64,000 bases of DNA from Scylla paramamosain (Eukaryota; Arthropoda; Malacostraca; Decapoda; Portunidae). Position numbers and translations under genes: made by a program. The notes below the pieces were generated by a model. It was not told the origin of the DNA, did no database searches, and worked only from the letters and a program-made list of their open reading frames with translations. Position 1 is the first letter of the stretch. Each line of letters opens with the position of its first letter. Positions 6,288 to 60,144 of the stretch are shown here, in pieces. The stretch is from assembly GCF_035594125.1 (NCBI RefSeq), contig NC_087151.1:29668521-29732520 (forward strand). Reading direction: 5' to 3'.

Positions 6288-6731
6288 TCAAAACACATTA
6301 TGAGACGAAAACTCTTGTGTGGTGGTGGTGGTGGTGGTGGTGCTGGTGCTACTGCTGCTCGATGTCTTGGAAAAACTGTTCCCGGACCTGGTGGTTTCCT
6401 GCTTCACCTGCTGCTCCCCCCACACACTCGCCGCGCCGCTGTCTTCCTCCTGACGAGAGTGACTTTGAACATTCATCTTGTGACTGGCAATGGAAGTGAC
6501 GTCTTGCTGCAGCTTTGGGGTGAGAATGGTGAGGACGCCGTCTGAGGAGAGCGCCGAGGTGATGGCCGCCACGTTGGCTTGTGAGGGCAGCGAGAAGATG
6601 CGCCTGAAGGTGAGTGTGGAGGACGAGGTTCCCTCTTCACACGAGGCTTGGCCTTCCACCACGAGTGTTCGCTCGTTCTCCACCTCCACTTTCAGCTCGC
6701 CGCCGACAAATTCGTGGACATCGAGGATGAT
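6288..6731 (-). other. multi-sHSP exon 9: alpha-crystallin domain 4 and C-terminus
   Basis: 147 codons plus TGA, residues 983-1129. The first 75 or so codons match exons 2, 4 and 6 (IILDVHEFVGGEL, FRRIFSLP, SSDGVLTILTPK). It then runs on into a tail with a Ser/Thr run encoded by AGC and ACC repeats. No IPI motif is seen in this last tail. Confidence 0.82.
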
Positions 6732-9700
6732 CTGCAGGAAGAAAGGCAGCGAGGCGGTGAGGGCGTGATCATCATCACCCAGAAAACGTCTCACCCTCAT
6801 CGTCCATAGAAAAGTGAACACACATGTATGACAAACTAGACAGATTATAAGCAACAGTTGACCCTCACCTTGAATGAACTCATGTCCTCCTCTACGTGGA
6901 CCGCCTGGTTTTCTAGTCGCCGGTTCGATCTCAGCTGGTTGCGGTAACTGATCATCTCGTCAGACAGGCAGGCCGCCTCTGACTGCTGCAGAACGTCCTG
7001 CACGGCGGCGGTGAACTGCTTCCTCATATCCTCGAAGAAGGAGTCGCTGAAGAAGTCTCCCTTGAGGCTGATGGGCACAGTCTTGCTGGATGGGAGACTG
7101 CCGGTAAGACTCCTGCTCTCCTCCGAGCGTCTTGTAGCTGTGGCAGAAATCCCCTGGAAACCTTTGCTGTTTGTCAACGCAGCAGCATTCTGCAGATGAT
7201 TTTCGGCTACTGCAGTATTACACGACTTAGTCTCTGAGGACGTAGTCTCAGATGCCGCGGCGGTGGCGGTGGCGTTCACGGTACTGGCATGGGAGGACTC
7301 CAGCGATTCCCTGTTTTGAGTCATTTGAGTGTTCTCTTTCACAGAGGTTGTACTTCCCTCGCGGTGTGATCCTGAGACGTGCTCCTGCTCCTCAAGTACC
7401 ACAGGAATGATGTGCTCCCGTGAACAAGCAACCTAGTGGAACACAAACTTGACATGAGCATTTGCTCTCTACTTTTTTTTTTTTTCTTCTTTTGTATAAG
7501 ATGGGCTCTGGCCAAAAACAATAAAAAGGAAAAAATTGTAGGTCTACTGAGATACCAGTCCCCAAAGGAAAGAGTCCAAAGGATTACCGAAAATTGGAGG
7601 AGTGTCTTGCAATCTCCCTCTTGAAGGAAGGGAGAGTACAGAAGCAGGCAAGGCGTTCCAGAATTTACCGATAAAAACAATGAAAGAATAAGAATACTGG
7701 TTAACTATTGCATTAGAGAGAGGAACAGAAGAGGAGTGAGAGAAAGTAAAGAGTCTCGTGCATTGAAGCCGTGAGAAAGTGAGACATGCAATTCGCAAGA
7801 TCAGAAAAGCAGCTAGCGTGAAAGTAGCGGTAGGAGAAAGGAAGAGATGGCGAAGAGAGAATGGCTGAAGACTGTCATTATGCAACCACTCGCTATGGAA
7901 TGAAAGGAATGGCACCTTTTTTGAGGAATCCAAAGAAACATTCTGAGTCCGGGACCCTTCGTGTGCAGCAGATTTAAAACTTGTCGACACCTGCTGCTGC
8001 TGCTGCTGCTGCTGCCGCTCGTTGCGTGCCTCCCTGTGTGACTTTAGCGACTCCTCTGATATGTGGCTGAGACTTTCTGTCCGGTGCACTCCCTCCTCCA
8101 CGGCCACTGGTATGATGGTTTCCCGGAAAGGCAGAGGCAGTGCCTGAAACAGTGAAGTTTAATACAATCATTGTACGTTCCTGAACGAATTCCTTCACTG
8201 TGGCATAAAACTGAAATACAAACTCATTGGTTACAAGTCACAGTGAAACGCTTCTCGCCTTCTTCGGAGCCGTAATGTTCAGGACTCCGTCAGCAGATAT
8301 CACCGAAGACACGGATTCTGAGTAAATGTTGCTAGGAAGGACGAAACGACGGTGAAACTCTTTCTTGTACCGCTCTCCGCCCTGCTGTCTCTCCACATGA
8401 CCCTCCACCACCAGCTCTCTGTCCTGCACTGATCTGACGGTGACGTTTCCGCCCTTCATGAAGTCCTCGACGTCCACAACAACCTGCAAGGACATTATTT
8501 CCCTGTAGCAATTTTTTGATAACATGTTGGAATTGGCACGAAGTACAACTTTTTTCCTAAGTCCTTAAACACACAAGAAATGCCAACAGGACCCGCAGCC
8601 CAGAGGACTCCCTCCCCTCACCTTATAATTGACTTTGTCGTCCGTGAGCTTAACTGCCTGGTTCTCGTCTCGCAAATCTTGTTCCCGCAGTCTCCGGTAG
8701 TGTGTGAAGTCGTCTGCAGGACAAGCGGGATCCCCCCACTTAGAGACCACGTCACTCACCGCCTCTTGGAAGTCCTTCCAGGCATCCTTGAAGAAAGAGT
8801 CACTGAAGAACGACCCACGAGTGGTGATGGGTAGCGTGACAGAGTCTGGCACGGACCGTTGCACCTCAGAGGTTGACTGTTTCTCACCGGCCTGCAGAAT
8901 CGAAGACGATTCTTTCATCTCAGTTTTTGTTTCCTTACTTTCTTTCATTGCTGTGTGGCTTAACCCGCTGATGGGGGCGTCCGTTTGAGTAGAGACTGTC
9001 GATGTCTGCCTGGAGACGTTGGAAGAGGGGCAAGTCTCTGCAGGCGAGCAGCTGCCGGGGGTCGCCGAGAAGCTGGAAGTAACGTGCTCCTCGCGCTTCT
9101 GTTGCAGCCCTTTTGTCTTTATAGGGATTGTTGTCTCTCTGCTCTGGATCTGATTCACCTGTTGAAGGAGGTATTTCAGGTATTAGTTGAATATGGTGAA
9201 GTATATTGTTTAGCCTGTAACGTTAGTCACACCTGCCACGCATCAACAGAGTTCTATTTTTATTTATTTTTTTTCGGAACATATTTTCTAGTTACCGTTG
9301 ATGTCCTTAACTCATGTTTGTTTATGATTATTAAATTATTGAACAACTCGCAAACTATAAATATAATTATTTCCCTGCTAAGCTAGCATTGGGTTGGTTT
9401 GGACTGCTAGAATGCATGATCTTCCTGGTCTGTCATGTCGTGACGGCGTAATGCCCTCGCGTCCTGCACACTTACAAGTCTTGGGACGGTGATGGTGAGA
9501 ATACCATCATCGGATATCACAGCAGACATGGCTGCTGTATCGGTGCTGGCTGGCAGACAGAAGCGTCTGCGAAAGCTGTTGCTGGACACTGCCAGGTCAT
9601 CTGTTTTGGTGTCTGTGCTTCCCTCAACCACCACCTCCCGCTCGCCCTCCACCCTCACCCTCACATCGCCACTCAAGAAGTTGTGCACATCTATCACGAT

Positions 9701-11285
9701 CTGGAAAATACGAAGATCTATGAAAGAGCAAAACACGGTGATCTATAGAATAATGAACAGCACTGTAATCAACGTCACACAGACAAATGCCATGGTGGCG
9801 TGAGACTGCACCTTGTGACTGGTTTCGTCGGCGGTGATCGTCACAGCCTGACTCTCTACATTGAGGTTGTGTTCACGGAGCTGCTTATAGCGACCCAGGC
9901 AGCTTGCGTCGTCGCGATCATTCGTCAGTATTTCACTGTCACCCCAGTGGCCCAACACGTCGTTCACGGCGCTCTGGAAGTCTTGTCGCATGCCCGCAAA
10001 GAAGGAGTCATCGAAGAACAAGCCTCGTCTGGTGATTGGCAGCTGGTTCCTTATATTAATCGGAACATAATGGGTCGAGGACGATTGAGTCTGATCCTTC
10101 TTTTCGCTGGTGTCCTGAGAGGTGACACTGCCGGCTTGGGAGAAAACGGAAGAGCTTTCAGCACGCTGGGACTGTCTTGAACCCTCACATGTGTTTCTCT
10201 CAGAGGACTCAACCCTCTCTTGGCTCATGAATTCTCGGCTCTGTGACCCTCGCGTGGCCTGCGTGCCCATGTTGGCTGGTGACCTGCGGGAGGTTTCTTC
10301 AAGGTCTTCATCTAACTTAATTGGAATTATGTGCTCTCTTCCTGAGCGCGCGGCGCTGTTCTGAGCCTGCTGCCCGAGGCGACAGGTGCATGTGGACTTT
10401 TGCGTAGAGTTCGTGTTCAGTGAAGAGAAGCCTGCACGCTGATCACTGGAATTGGCAGCACGTGCACCTTGCACGAAGAGAGGCACCTCTGTTTCCTTCT
10501 GTCCCCGAGCCACGCTCTGAACGAAAACACAAATAGTGATTTTCTGTTTGCGAAGTGAACTGTGAATATTACACAAAGACAAGATGAATTTAAGAATGTT
10601 CATTATAATGTAGTTTACTGTACCCGGAGTGGCGCGCTGACGGTGAGGATGCCATCGTCAGACAACACGGCAGACACGGCAGCCAGATCGGTGTTGGGTG
10701 GAAGACAAAAACGTCGACGGAAACTGTTGCTCGACGATGTCCAGCTCCCTGTCTTGGTCTCGGTGCGTCCCTCGACCACCAGTTCCCGCTCGCCTTCCAG
10801 CCTCACCTTCACATCGCCACCCAGGAAGTCGTGCACATCCATCACGATCTGCAGCAGATATAGGAAATTATTCACAATAATTGGGACTTACTTGTGTCAA
10901 GAATAATATCCATCATGTTCGTGGCATCTCCTTCACCTTGTGCGCGTATGTGCACTCGCTCACGCTGACTGACCTTGTGGGTAGTTGCGTCCGAGGCGAC
11001 AGTCACAGCTTGGTCCTCCTCCCTCAGGTTGTCGCGCCGCAGCTGCCTGAAGCGGTCGAGGCTGTCGGAGTGGCGAAGTTTTGAATCACCCGATAGATCA
11101 CTAAGAAAGTCCGTCTCTCCCCACTGCTGTAGAATCCGCCGTACGTTGTTATTGAGCTGTTCATATGCATTCTCGAAGGCAGAGTCCTGGAAGAAGTGTC
11201 CCCGGCGGGTTATAGGCAGCTCGAAGGTCCAGAAACTGTCGGGAATGCCTTGGTCTGAAGAAGGTGGCCCTGATATAGGAGCCAT
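6288..11285 (-). CDS. four-unit small heat shock protein (tandem alpha-crystallin polyprotein)
   Basis: Predicted ATP-independent holdase chaperone. Nine coding exons, all joined in phase 0: 10974-11285, 10624-10848, 9812-10516, 9476-9700, 8622-9158, 8259-8483, 7991-8143, 6869-7432 and 6288-6731, giving about 1129 aa. Seen: four units, each with a conserved segment (PI-x-x-x-G-x-FF-x-DS-x-F, then often WG) and an alpha-crystallin domain (near residues 95-179, 405-489, 660-743 and 975-1060) carrying DV-x-F...GE, RR-x-F-x-LP and SDDG-x-LT. Tails after units 1-3 carry IPI or IPV-like motifs such as RETTIPI and REHIIPI, as in the C-terminal I-x-I/V of ordinary sHSPs; the last unit ends in a Ser/Thr-rich tail without it. 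Ordinary family members are about 150-250 aa with one domain. The start is the first ATG of exon 1. Exon 6 needs a GC donor (8257-8258); otherwise the frame stops five codons later. The product could instead be several proteins if internal promoters exist. Confidence 0.82.
7470..7925 (-). mobile_element. LINE-type 3' fragment, copy A, in sHSP intron 7
   Basis: On the minus strand it reads FIGKFWNALPASVLSLPS, typical of the C-terminus of non-LTR retrotransposon reverse transcriptases, and it ends at an A-rich tract (T run on plus, about 7471-7483). It is homologous to copies near 15320, 62640 and 63420, all in the same orientation. It fills nearly all of the intron between exons 7 and 8. Confidence 0.6.
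7991..8143 (-). other. multi-sHSP exon 7: IXI tail and poly-Gln
   Basis: 51 codons, residues 744-794. The 3' splice site is TTTCAG|GCACTG. It carries RETIIPV near its start and ends in eight Gln codons (CAG repeat), with donor CAG|GTGTCG. The open frame runs past that donor into a LINE-type fragment, so the donor choice is inferred from phase and from homology to exon 3. Confidence 0.6.
8259..8483 (-). other. multi-sHSP exon 6: alpha-crystallin domain 3 with GC donor
   Basis: 75 codons if it ends at APKK, residues 669-743. It starts VVVDVEDFMKGG and contains HRRFVLP and SADGVLNITAPKK. The base pair after the exon is GC (AAG|GCGAGA), not GT. Joining to exon 7 gives APKK-ALPLPFRETIIPV, which is the standard sHSP tail layout. 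Read-through instead gives a TGA five codons later. Confidence 0.7.
9476..9700 (-). other. multi-sHSP exon 4: alpha-crystallin domain 2
   Basis: Again exactly 75 codons, residues 415-489, starting IVIDVHNFLSGDV and containing SFRRRFCLP. The donor is a perfect GTAAGT. An open frame reads on into the intron but matches no sHSP tail. Confidence 0.85.
10624..10848 (-). other. multi-sHSP exon 2: alpha-crystallin domain 1
   Basis: Exactly 75 codons, residues 105-179. It starts IVMDVHDFLGGDV, carries SFRRRFCLP and SDDGILTVSAP, and is bounded by CAG| and |GTACAG. It is very similar to exon 4, pointing to a fairly recent duplication. Confidence 0.85.
10974..11285 (-). other. multi-sHSP exon 1: N-terminal segment of unit 1
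   Basis: Residues 1-104. It begins MAPISGPP, holds LPITRRGHFFQDSAF and ends in ...TTHK, then donor GTCAGT. The first beta strand of the alpha-crystallin domain lies at the exon end, so the intron cuts the domain near its start. The same cut occurs in all four units. Confidence 0.8.
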
Positions 11286-11393: not shown

Positions 11394-11399
11394 CTTATA
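11394..11399 (-). promoter_or_regulatory. candidate TATA box of the multi-sHSP gene
   Basis: TATAAG on the minus strand, about 110 nt upstream of the ATG, which would put transcription start near 11365. I found no clear heat-shock element with the GAA-nn-TTC spacing close by. Confidence 0.4.
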
Positions 11400-39281: not shown

Positions 39282-42200
39282 ATGACGGCCCTGGGGCAGC
39301 TGGTGTTCGATGAGTATGGCAAACCCATCATCATCCTAAAGGACCAGGACCAGCAGAAGAGATTAACTGGTATCGATGCTCTGAAGGTACGAGTGTATTC
39401 CTGGCTGACTGGCAGGTGTGGTGCATTATTAATGTACTGGCTGAACTATGGCCTGATGGGATTCCAGATCAGTATGGGTTTGCATATTATGCCGATATGT
39501 ATCTTGCGCGGGGTTAATAATGCCTGGTTTCATCGAAAATTGTGTTAAAATAGAGGAAGGAGTGACAGGAGGCAACCGTGAGTCACTGACTCACTCCACC
39601 CACCTAGACCGTGTTTATCTATTCCCATTTTTCGATTTTTCTGTGTGAAGTTCCAATTCTTCTGCTGATCTCGATAGCCTGGGTGAGTGGAGGAGTGGCC
39701 AAGGTACGGGATCAGTGAGGAGGCTATATGACTCATTTAATGGGTCACGATTTTCGTGACATTTTTGTTCAACCAGATAATAGGATGTGGATTTTTCCGA
39801 AAATAAATCGTTGATATATGTAGTGGCTTCATTAAGTAGATAATGTAACGTTGGTAATAATGCAAGTGACTCCAAATCAATATCTTTAATGATTGTTTAT
39901 TGTATTAATTTCCCCCCCTATTGGAAAGAATTTAAATCTTTTATATATTTATTTTTTAAGATTGCTATTGTCTGCTAAGTGATTTTCTAGAGGGAATGCA
40001 GAGGGCCCCCAGTCTATGGCCCCTTTCACACAGGCAGTCAAAGTGTGTGACTGGGGTCACATCAGTGAGTCACTTCTGTGAAAAGGATCACTGCTCAGAA
40101 GTGCTGCTGTAGGCTCAGTCAGCTTGGTTCAGTTGCATCATTGATTCTGATGAAGAAGCTGTTGCTATTCTACTTGCCCTTTTGACATTATCAGCAACAG
40201 TGATCACTATTGATGCATTCCATAACTTTTGAGGGGTTGACAGTGGGCCAGGTTTATACACTAATGAACAATCTTAAAGCAGTGTTCCCTCCTCCACCAT
40301 CCTTTCTTATTTTGTTACATTGTCTTTTATAATTTCACAGTACTCCACTCCCTCATCCACTTTTCCATCCCCTCTTTCCATCTCATCCCTTGTGGTTGGA
40401 CGTTCAAACTCCACAAAGTCACCTCTGAAAAGACTCAAGCAACCAATTGCCGTAATTGGTTGCGGGGACAGGCTGCGTCAGTCATGTGCATTGAATACTT
40501 GTGTGAAGGCTCACTGACAAAAACAATGGGAAGCCACTCCCCCACTACTCAGCAGTGCTGCCAAGTCACACGACACAAATGGCCATGTGAAAGGGCCCAA
40601 AAAAGTTATTAGTGGTGGCTACATTAGTAATCCTTTGAGAGTCCTAGGGGTGGTATGTCCACTAAGTACTATTAACATAATCTGACATAATACCATTTAG
40701 GTTGAGGGATCTGCATTCTCCTTGAACATCTCAACTAGGAAGCGGTCTTTGAATTTTTTATGAAATTAAATAATGATACTCCATAAAGAAGAGATATTAC
40801 AACTTATTCAGTAGGAAGTGGAAATATTTGATAAAACCTGGTGGTTCTTATAAATTACAACTAGCCCACACTGGTTAAAATGGTTAAATTAAAAAAAAAC
40901 ATCCAGTGGGATGAAAGGGATGAGATGAAGTGGTTAATTTGCTTGTTAACATTACCTATGTAATTTCAGCAAATATAAAGAAATCTTGACTGTCACACTT
41001 TAGTGAATGAATGAAACCTAAATTATTTTCTATAAAGAAAGAAAAGAAATTGCTACATTTATGATATATACAGTTTGTACACACACACACATACAGTAAC
41101 AGTGAATCATATTGTTACCAAAGCAGAAGATATTTGTATCCTGAATGAGAAGAGTCTCTCTAGATTACTGAGGCCACCAATAATGTGTATGATGGAAAGG
41201 AGATGGTTTAAAACCCTCTATTGTTTGTGTGTTACTCATCACCTGCCATGTATCTACTATGTGCTTTGCTGTATATAGGAAGTAATATCAGTACTTATTA
41301 GTGATACTGTTGCACAGAGTTAACCAGTGTTGCATTACAGTCTCACATTTTGGCGGCCCGGAGTGTTTCATCCATCCTGAGCACGTCCCTGGGACCTAAA
41401 GGTCTGGATAAGTTGATGGTAAATCCTGATGGTGATGTTACTGTCACCAATGATGGAGCCACCATCCTGAAGATGATGGATGTGGAGCACCAGATTGCTA
41501 AGTTGATGGTGCAGCTTTCCCAGTCACAAGATGATGAAATTGGTGATGGAACAACGGGAGTTGTAGGTAAGTTTTGCATTGTCAACTGATGCTGACCATG
41601 TGTGGAGTGTAAATTATTTTGCTCTTCATATATATATTCCTCAATTTTCCGATAGTATTATTGCCAATAAGTAATTTCAAGTTTGTCATCTTACAGTTTA
41701 TTTAATTTTCAGTGCTGGCTGGAGCATTGCTGGAAAAAGCAGAATACCTACTGGACAAGGGTATACACCCTATTCGTATTGCTGATGGATATGAGCTGGC
41801 TGCTAAGAAGGCCATTGAAAATCTAGAAAAAATTGCTGAGGAGTTTCCTGTTGATATCAACAACTTGGAGCCCCTAATTCTTACTGCCATGACCACTCTT
41901 GGGTCCAAGATTATTAACCGCTGTCACCGGCAGATGGCAGAAATAGCTGTGAATGCAGTCATGGCTGTAGCTGACATGGAAACACGAGATGTTAACTTTG
42001 AGCTGATCAAAGTGGAGGGCAAGGTTGGAGGCAAGCTGGAGGACACTATGCTGGTGAAAGGAGTGGTAGTAGACAAGGACTTTTCTCACCCACAGATGCC
42101 TAAGGAACTCAAGGATGTCAAGATGGCCATCCTTACCTGTCCCTTTGAGCCCCCAAAGCCAAAGACCAAACATAAGCTGGAGGTGAGCAGTGTAGAAGAG

Positions 42201-43470
42201 TACAATGCACTCTATCAGTACGAACAAAAGCAGTTCACTGAAATGGTGGAAAAAGTGAAAGCTGCAGGGGCCAATCTTGCTATCTGCCAGTGGGGCTTTG
42301 ATGACGAGGCCAATCACCTTCTCCTCCAGAAGCAGCTTCCAGCAGTGAGGTGGGTAGGAGGACCTGAGATCGAGCTCATTGCCATTGCAACAAATGGCCG
42401 CATTGTGCCTCGCTTTGAGGAGCTGTCACCAGAGAAGCTGGGAACATGTGGAACAGTGCGTGAGCTTTCCTTTGGTACGACCAAAGACAAGATGTTGGTG
42501 ATAGAAGAGTGTCCCAACACTAAGGCTGTCACTATTTTCATCCGTGGTGGTAACAAGATGATCATTGAAGAAGCCAAGCGAAGCATCCATGATGCCCTGT
42601 GTGTTGTGAGGAACTTGGTGCGCAACAACAAGATTGTGTACGGTGGTGGTGCCGCTGAAGTGTCTTGTGCCTTGGCTGTATCCGAGGAGGCTGATAAGGT
42701 AAGCTAGTTATCTAAGTAATGTTTAAAATGTTATATTTGTCCCAACAGTTGTGCTCATGCAAACATTTTAGTGTATTTTGTTATCAGAAGTTTGCAAGCA
42801 AACCAAGAAAAAAAATTTTGACTTTTGCGAAGGAAGACTGGCAACATTCAATATGACATGTGAATGTTTTTCTTAATCTACAGATCTCCACCTTGGAGCA
42901 GTATGCATTCCGTGCATTTGCTGATGCTCTGGAAAGCATTCCTCTGGCACTTGCTGAGAATTCTGGCCTTTCTCCCATCCACACCCTTTCTGACTGCAAG
43001 GCTAGACAGGTTGCTGAGAAGAACCCAGCGTTAGGCATTGATTGCAACCAAAAAGGAACATGTGGTTAGTGCTTTTATGCAAAACTTACATTTTTATTTA
43101 AAAATATTCATGAACAGTAGGTACACTTTGGCCTTTGTATGCTGAAAGCTTTATAGGTACATTCAGAATGACTAAATCTCTAGAATGTTGCTTAAAACAT
43201 TATTTCACACTATCAGCCATCCCTATTTATGGGTTGGCACCCAAGAAAATCAAAATGCACTCCTTCATATTCTTAGAATTTATAAACTAAATAAGAATGC
43301 CAAGATGAAAATTATAACATGCCCTTTTTTGGTTTTCAGACATGAAGAATCAACATGTGATTGAGACCCTTCACAGCAAGAAGCAACAGCTCCTCTTGGC
43401 TACTCAACTTGTGAAGATGATCCTCAAGATTGATGACATCCGCACTCCTGGGGAGTCCTACTCTGCCTAA
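39282..43470 (+). CDS. CCT5: T-complex protein 1 subunit epsilon (TRiC/CCT chaperonin)
   Basis: One of eight paralogous subunits of the cytosolic chaperonin, which folds actin, tubulin and other proteins using ATP. Five exons: 39282-39386, 41341-41566, 41713-42698, 42884-43064 and 43340-43470; phases agree, giving 542 aa against 541 in human CCT5. Seen: the N-terminus [25 protein letters not shown] (near 53-62), [11 protein letters not shown], the nucleotide-binding GDGTT with upstream DDEI (near 99-107), [12 protein letters not shown], the long epsilon-specific block [39 protein letters not shown], and the ending DDIRTPGES. The start codon has a good Kozak context (CCACCATGA). All introns have GT-AG ends. 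No defects seen. Confidence 0.97.
40018..40598. mobile_element. MITE in CCT5 intron 1
   Basis: The ends GGCCCCTTTCACACAGGC and GGCCATGTGAAAGGGCCC are inverted copies, about 580 bp apart. The middle holds a palindrome, GCAACCAATT and AATTGGTTGC, at 40439-40463. No transposase. The end sequence resembles widespread GGGCCCTTTCACA-type MITEs. Confidence 0.55.

Positions 43471-48779: not shown

Positions 48780-60144
<11,365 letters not shown>

Follow-up and report, generated by a model that had tools for sequence, protein, structure and literature searches.

A gene for four small heat shock protein (sHSP) units joined head to tail lies on the minus strand of the 64-kb stretch of Scylla paramamosain DNA analysed here (the window), from the ATG at 11285 to the stop codon at 6288. 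Each of its nine exons has a length divisible by three and all junctions are in phase 0, giving an open frame of 1154 codons plus stop and a product of 1154 aa (about 127 kDa, isoelectric point 5.5). A Pfam scan of this protein returned four HSP20/alpha-crystallin stretches (PF00011, E 1.2e-59), and the only other model to match, PF17886, is also HSP20-like. The frame and these four stretches bear out the initial annotation, which had described nine phase-0 exons on one strand with four sets of an N-terminal FF-x-DS segment and an alpha-crystallin domain (ACD). The features of the gene are listed below from its upstream side.

11394..11399, minus strand: TATAAG, TATA-like by consensus resemblance only, about 110 bp upstream of the ATG
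10974..11285, minus strand: exon 1, start codon, unit 1 N-terminal region and first ACD strand (residues 1-104); donor GTCAGT
11181..11219, minus strand: unit 1 LPITRRGHFFQDS motif
10624..10848, minus strand: exon 2, ACD1 core, 75 aa
9812..10516, minus strand: exon 3, linker 1-2 with IxI motifs and unit 2 N-terminal region in a single unbroken frame
10478..10498, minus strand: KETEVPL, IxI-like, linker 1-2
10319..10339, minus strand: REHIIPI, IxI motif, linker 1-2
10004..10042, minus strand: unit 2 LPITRRGLFFDDS motif
9476..9700, minus strand: exon 4, ACD2 core, 75 aa; 76% DNA identity to exon 2
8622..9158, minus strand: exon 5, linker 2-3 and unit 3 N-terminal region
9120..9140, minus strand: RETTIPI, IxI motif, linker 2-3
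8796..8834, minus strand: unit 3 LPITTRGSFFSDS motif
8259..8483, minus strand: exon 6, ACD3 core, 75 aa, followed by a GC donor
8144..8258, minus strand: intron 6, GC-AG; read-through adds ARSVSL and then a stop (possible three-ACD form)
7916..8143, minus strand: exon 7, opening part of linker 3-4 with an IxI motif (residues 744-819)
8105..8125, minus strand: RETIIPV, IxI motif, linker 3-4
6869..7432, minus strand: exon 8, remainder of linker 3-4 and unit 4 N-terminal region
7400..7420, minus strand: REHIIPV, IxI motif, linker 3-4
7040..7078, minus strand: unit 4 VPISLKGDFFSDS motif
6288..6731, minus strand: exon 9, ACD4 core, Ser/Thr-rich tail without IxI, stop codon
6181..6186, minus strand: AATAAA, first poly(A)-like signal past the stop in a hexamer scan

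Gene structure and integrity of the four-unit frame

The ACD cores of units 1 to 3 occupy exons 2, 4 and 6, of 225 bp each, and that of unit 4 opens exon 9; an ACD profile scan of the window matched only in the four ACD exons of this gene. Each unit comprises about 145-180 residues without its linker. The N-terminal segment (L/V)PI-x2-3-G-x-FF-x-DS is present in all four, so that a variable N-terminal region with a common FF-x-DS motif precedes each ACD, as in the sHSP family. IxI motifs, the mark of the sHSP C-terminal extension, follow ACD1, ACD2 and ACD3 in the three linkers and are absent from the tail after ACD4. Because units 1 to 3 each have IxI motifs, they are complete sHSPs and not bare domains. 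All internal exons are symmetric (phase 0-0), which eases the duplication of units and is perhaps the source of the varied unit number seen in relatives.

Of the eight introns, only intron 6 departs from GT-AG, being GC-AG (AAG|GCGAGA). We accepted this junction because the homologues of Portunus and Chionoecetes both join the same residues and because P0146, a protein fragment from a second species, reads APKK|A, with GCN at the donor; the GC donor thus appears to be conserved in that species. The product had initially been put at about 1129 aa, a length that fits an exon 7 ending 25 codons earlier, at CAG|GTGTCG. This shorter model was rejected, since the Portunus and Chionoecetes proteins run on to the K|V junction and P0146 reads SLDSSKK|V. 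Upstream of the ATG, a promoter scan found one TATAAA, at 376 bp.

Tandem sHSP clusters are common, and the four units could in principle be neighbouring genes wrongly joined by the gene model or collapsed in the assembly; the GC splice donor and poly(A)-like hexamers within introns 4 and 6 could be taken in that sense. Exons 3, 5 and 8, however, each run as one stop-free frame from a linker with an IxI motif into the N-terminal region of the unit that follows (linker 3-4 is split between exons 7 and 8), and the units are therefore not simply separate genes. The same chain is encoded in other decapods. The Portunus trituberculatus protein P0001 (1163 aa, on a 42.7-Mb contig) aligns with the window protein from end to end at 85% identity and reaches 88-96% in the N-terminal and ACD parts of the units, a likeness beyond chance, and the Chionoecetes protein P0003 is 48% identical. 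Proteins of similar size with four ACDs occur in Chionoecetes, Petrolisthes, Procambarus, Panulirus, Homarus and Penaeus. Moreover, six protein fragments of the second species correspond to units 1, 3 and 4 and to a single ACD from unit 1 or 2, and carry read-through residues at the same exon edges as the window gene; all six come from a source whose longest contig is 5703 bases, a shared contig being deduced from that equal size. Five multi-ACD proteins from a source labelled 'lgn' (P0037, P0039, P0048, P0049 and P0063) are intronless frames in contigs of 2.1-3.2 kb and are transcript-like. Given the exon structure, the Portunus ortholog on its long contig, the decapod four-ACD proteins and these intronless frames, separate genes or a collapsed assembly are very unlikely and are refuted in the main, and the single fused four-unit gene originally proposed stands.

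Relatives in crustaceans and known small heat shock proteins

A whole-protein search gave 66 matches, of which 61 were organism-named, and a profile search built on 11 multi-ACD proteins gave 100, of which 95 were named; all named matches of both searches were from malacostracan crustaceans. Both searches scored only the candidates with most shared words and may have missed remoter multi-ACD proteins; as for the placement, Hyalella, Oratosquilla and Meganyctiphanes were looked up and the decapods assigned by general knowledge. A search with single units as queries also reached single-ACD proteins from insects and one nematode. The initial annotation had suggested looking for crustacean proteins with several ACDs per chain, and such proteins were indeed found: 117 of the 121 distinct proteins from the whole-protein and profile searches carry at least two ACDs, in a set that includes isoforms and near-identical copies and by a purpose-built hidden Markov model trained on part of that set. 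Among the 117, 28 have two ACDs, 41 three, 29 four, one five, eight six, five seven, two eight, two nine and one ten (P0189, from Eriocheir); the remaining four comprise three proteins with one ACD and one with none. With its four ACDs, the crab protein shares the several-domain feature of these chains and, judged by sequence, is a member of a malacostracan multi-ACD sHSP family that extends over crabs, shrimps, krill and their relatives.

Database names of the relatives include titin homolog, mucin-22, serine-rich adhesin and dentin sialophosphoprotein-like. An identity as extracellular adhesin, titin or mucin was rejected for the window protein, which contains only PF00011 and PF17886 matches and, by hydropathy, neither a signal peptide nor a membrane segment. 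Members of the family occur widely in animals that matter commercially or for thermal stress, and studies of stress may have overlooked them because several bear titin, mucin or adhesin names. The eight- to ten-ACD chains P0189 and P0011 (Eriocheir), P0187 (Halocaridina) and P0002 (Cherax) are likewise named titin-like, titin homolog or hypothetical protein.

An IxI-type motif, defined as [IV]P[IVLM], is present in 36 of the 42 internal linkers and in none of the 14 tails of 14 four-ACD proteins. In 118 multi-ACD proteins including that of the window, 138 of 313 internal linkers have it, commonly in a context of roughly (K/R)E-x-I-I-P-(I/V)-x-V-E, whereas 20 composition shuffles gave 25.4 on average (range 16-35); for this count the 60 residues preceding each ACD were removed and linkers of up to 75 residues scored as lacking the motif. 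Among terminal tails of at least 15 residues it is present in 11 of 78. Three linkers of the wider family hold six such motifs. One is the single 360-residue linker between ACD2 and ACD3 of Macrobrachium nipponense HSP21 as deposited (P0209, 986 aa, three ACDs), which reads as an array of putative docking cassettes.

Structure prediction with AlphaFold2 for the Portunus ortholog gave four units, each with a strand, two or three helices and a beta-sandwich, at a predicted local distance difference test score (pLDDT) mostly of 70-93, and linkers below 50 that are predicted to be disordered; the (L/V)PI FF-x-DS segment is followed by the two or three helices and then by the ACD. A model of a two-ACD Penaeus protein was of low quality, with a mean pLDDT of 45 and every residue below 90. 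In Foldseek, the Portunus model matched, in this order, Tsp36, a two-ACD flatworm sHSP, alphaA-crystallin, SIP1 and alphaB-crystallin. The four PF00011 stretches, the folded ACDs of the model and these matches to solved ACDs agree, and the window protein is an sHSP by domain content, although not small by size: its 127 kDa lies above the 12-43 kDa given for sHSPs in the abstract of PMC10417760.

Among known proteins, P0001 and the decapod four-ACD relatives are like the window protein in units, linkers, IxI motifs and length; P0001 differs in sequence only, and its database name, 'serine-rich adhesin for platelets-like isoform X1', gives no hint of an sHSP. Insect l(2)efl and the vertebrate alpha-crystallins have the ACD in common with the window protein, but one instead of four; some insect sHSPs inspected carry an IxI-type motif after the ACD, whereas the six insect sequences inspected for the FF-x-DS segment lack it. 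Taenia Tsp36 (PDB 2bol) resembles the window protein in its tandem ACDs and was the first Foldseek match, but it has two ACDs and 301 residues in the solved chain, and the superposition was poor (TMt 0.23, root-mean-square deviation 19.4). Among single-unit proteins, Penaeus 'lethal(2)essential for life-like' sequences (about 150-186 aa) come closest; they share the N-terminal motif and, in those inspected, lack IxI after the ACD. Eight of these Penaeus single units form one clade among the malacostracan ACDs, while seven insect and nematode sHSPs are set apart on a long branch (0.86, support 100/99). The tree thus favours, for the window protein, common descent with the multi-ACD proteins of Malacostraca over common descent with the single-ACD sHSPs of insects, in a set without single-ACD sHSPs from non-malacostracan crustaceans and with bootstrap values not fully settled.

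Proteins of this kind are already known, and the four-unit crab gene is a new member, not a unique case. The initial annotation could name no described four-domain animal sHSP, but relatives are on record: PMC13226371 cites heat-responsive triple- and septuple-ACD genes of the whiteleg shrimp (Zhang et al. 2023, Sci Total Environ 880:163239), and dozens of relatives stand in databases, some of them misnamed. These penaeid proteins share the several ACDs per crustacean chain, with three and seven in place of four. The same paper reports double-ACD earthworm proteins and mentions a triple-ACD one, and the annelid dimeric and triple forms (PMC9075518, PMC13226371) are likewise tandem, with two or three ACDs rather than four. 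Two-domain forms had at first been ascribed to some parasitic worms, which is too narrow: the parts of PMC9075518 consulted list them in annelids, molluscs and phoronids as well as flatworms, and in neither nematodes nor arthropods. Since the same parts place the duplications before the Spiralia split and find no dimeric form in arthropods, the crustacean chains are probably of independent origin from the spiralian dimeric sHSPs. Available passages of PMC2850924 name Tsp36 as a two-ACD sHSP and hold nothing on crustaceans, and the part of an Oratosquilla heat paper that was available names sHSPs once, in its reference list. In searches of open-licence PubMed Central papers, only a human HSPB2/HSPB3 paper came up for four-ACD proteins, and neither the malacostracan spread of multi-ACD proteins nor the placement of IxI in linkers was seen described there; Zhang et al. 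may already cover all three.

Evolution of the four alpha-crystallin domains

We compared the 44 ACDs of 11 four-ACD proteins in a tree under a simple model (LG+G4) with few columns. ACD3 formed one clade (100/99) and ACD4 another (96/97), both by position, whereas ACD1 and ACD2 were intermixed and paired by lineage, nine changes being needed for each label; a single ACD1 clade and a single ACD2 clade were rejected by the approximately unbiased (AU) test (p 2.2e-5 and 8.7e-47). In two larger trees ACD3 again grouped by position, and the Penaeus ACD4s fell outside the other ACD4s, as did the last ACD of Halocaridina in the first of them. ACD3 and ACD4 thus retain positional identity across decapods, with the Penaeus ACD4 unsettled. 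When the N-terminal regions of these 11 proteins were compared, single groups with modest support emerged for units 3 and 4 (82/75 and 85/85) but not for units 1 and 2 (three and four changes), although single groups were not rejected for the latter (AU p 0.13 and 0.077).

Within one protein, the exon regions of ACD1 and ACD2 are 88-100% identical in 8 of the 15 comparisons made and 62-78% identical in the other seven, among them the window protein (52/74), and the 30 residues that follow are 14-59% identical in the 15. Exon edges in the other species were inferred from the map of the window gene. In Chionoecetes the exon region is identical at 72/74 positions, the 30 residues before it at 18/30, residues 31-90 before it at 22/58 and the 30 after it at 7/26; the corresponding values for Panulirus A are 73/74, 22/30, 28/57 and 9/30. 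Panulirus B and Homarus B have a more gradual upstream edge (25/30 each). The likeness extends over the N-terminal region as well (74-81%) in the Petrolisthes and Scylla B paralogs, so the exon does not always bound the tract.

In its simplest reading, this pattern would mean that ACD1 and ACD2 have been repeatedly homogenised across lineages, by gene conversion or by selection for sameness between exons 2 and 4. Re-duplication of units lineage by lineage is less likely where the N-terminal regions stay distinct; it is possible in Penaeus, where units 1 and 2 pair by their N-terminal regions (100/98). Recent conversion in the window species itself was rejected: exons 2 and 4 have identical codons at 32 of the 52 shared residues and nowhere match over 14 or more consecutive bases. 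The homogenisation of ACD1 with ACD2 is undescribed in the open-licence literature considered above, and Zhang et al. may already describe it too. Kept alike lineage by lineage while ACD3 and ACD4 stay apart, the first two domains offer a natural experiment on domain pairing.

Proposed working form of the chain and neighbouring features

Taken together, the locus is very likely a single protein-coding brachyuran gene for a four-unit sHSP that most likely works as covalently tethered subunits. In sHSPs, ACDs pair by sheet edges, the groove between strands 4 and 8 receives IxI motifs, and tethering raises local concentration; these properties make a stapled, pre-assembled chain the most likely working form. 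The analysis establishes gene structure, module content, motif placement and conservation; cis pairing, stapling, client binding and chaperone activity are inferred, as follows. Every unit has the make-up of an sHSP module, with a short LPI strand, an FF-x-DS helix region and an ACD, and with IxI motifs in a disordered Ser/Thr/Gln-rich linker after units 1 to 3, and the chain would form a covalently pre-tethered sHSP oligomer resembling beads on a string. The ACDs might pair through their sheet edges within one chain or between chains, the linker IxI motifs might dock into ACD grooves and so staple adjacent units, and the FF helices might bind unfolding clients with high avidity. Such a pre-assembled oligomer, already proposed in the initial annotation, seems plausible.

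Some observations weigh against this picture. The predicted template modelling score was 0.29 in both AlphaFold2 models (four-ACD Portunus and two-ACD Penaeus), with no confident arrangement or pairing of units. The two Petrolisthes B paralogs have no IxI motif in linkers 1-2 and 2-3, P0049 has none in two of its three linkers, and under the definition used 175 of the 313 internal linkers of the wider family lack it; stapling therefore cannot be universal. No heat-shock element with at least eight of nine matches occurs within 2 kb upstream, so heat induction is unsupported here, and the poly(A)-like hexamers inside the introns (AATAAA in intron 4 at 9268, ATTAAA in intron 6 at 8163) would permit shorter transcripts.

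The product might instead be a polyprotein, the 127-kDa precursor being cut by proteases in its linkers to yield four ordinary sHSPs in equal amounts. The linkers are long and predicted to be disordered, five basic pairs lie outside the units with at least one in each linker, and the Penaeus single-unit proteins with the same N-terminal motif indicate that lone units are viable. Yet the protein has no signal peptide or hydrophobic segment, and in Chionoecetes only one of the five basic pairs is kept, whereas IxI is kept in all three linkers. Separate positional identities of ACD3 and ACD4 would moreover be needless for a bag of equal products. Cleavage into single sHSPs, which had been offered as an option from the start, thus finds no positive support and we consider it improbable. 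A second product is compatible with the tethered four-unit chain and could exist beside it: through the weak GC donor of intron 6, the gene may also yield a three-ACD chain that ends after ACD3. Read-through of this intron meets a stop after six residues, the intron contains the ATTAAA just mentioned, and the donor is apparently GC in the second species too. Penaeus vannamei P0028 (isoform X2) also ends after ACD3 and shares 84% identity with the four-ACD P0021 across residues 1-813, but it retains the IxI segment after ACD3, so that it departs from the four-ACD sequence later than intron 6 would cause, and it may be a gene-model matter. Altogether this additional form is rather unlikely, although far from negligible, and if it exists it may be regulated.

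For the tethered chain itself, a further and tentative proposal, which we hold to be possible but on balance doubtful, is that it is an encoded, ordered assembly with a division of labour. ACD1 and ACD2, kept almost the same in many lineages by gene conversion largely confined to their exons, would form a homodimer-like pair within one chain, ACD3 and ACD4 would be fixed position-specific partners, and the IxI cassettes of the linkers would set how tightly the assembly closes. If true, exon-limited concerted evolution of one domain pair in a four-domain chaperone would be a new route by which sHSP subunit pairing evolves and can be read. Oligomers of sHSPs are polydisperse and hard to dissect because their subunits exchange. 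A natural chain of fixed stoichiometry and order would allow a direct test of ACD partners and of the role of IxI, position by position.

Three other features were seen in the window. Another chaperone gene lies about 30 kb from the sHSP gene, as a TCP-1/cpn60 chaperonin frame of 333 aa (41706-42704, plus strand; PF00118, E 2.1e-100). An exon-like frame at 59299-59616 on the minus strand matches the sodium:solute symporter family (PF00474), and a near-pure AG dinucleotide repeat of 0.9 kb (52167-53066) is open in several frames on both strands.

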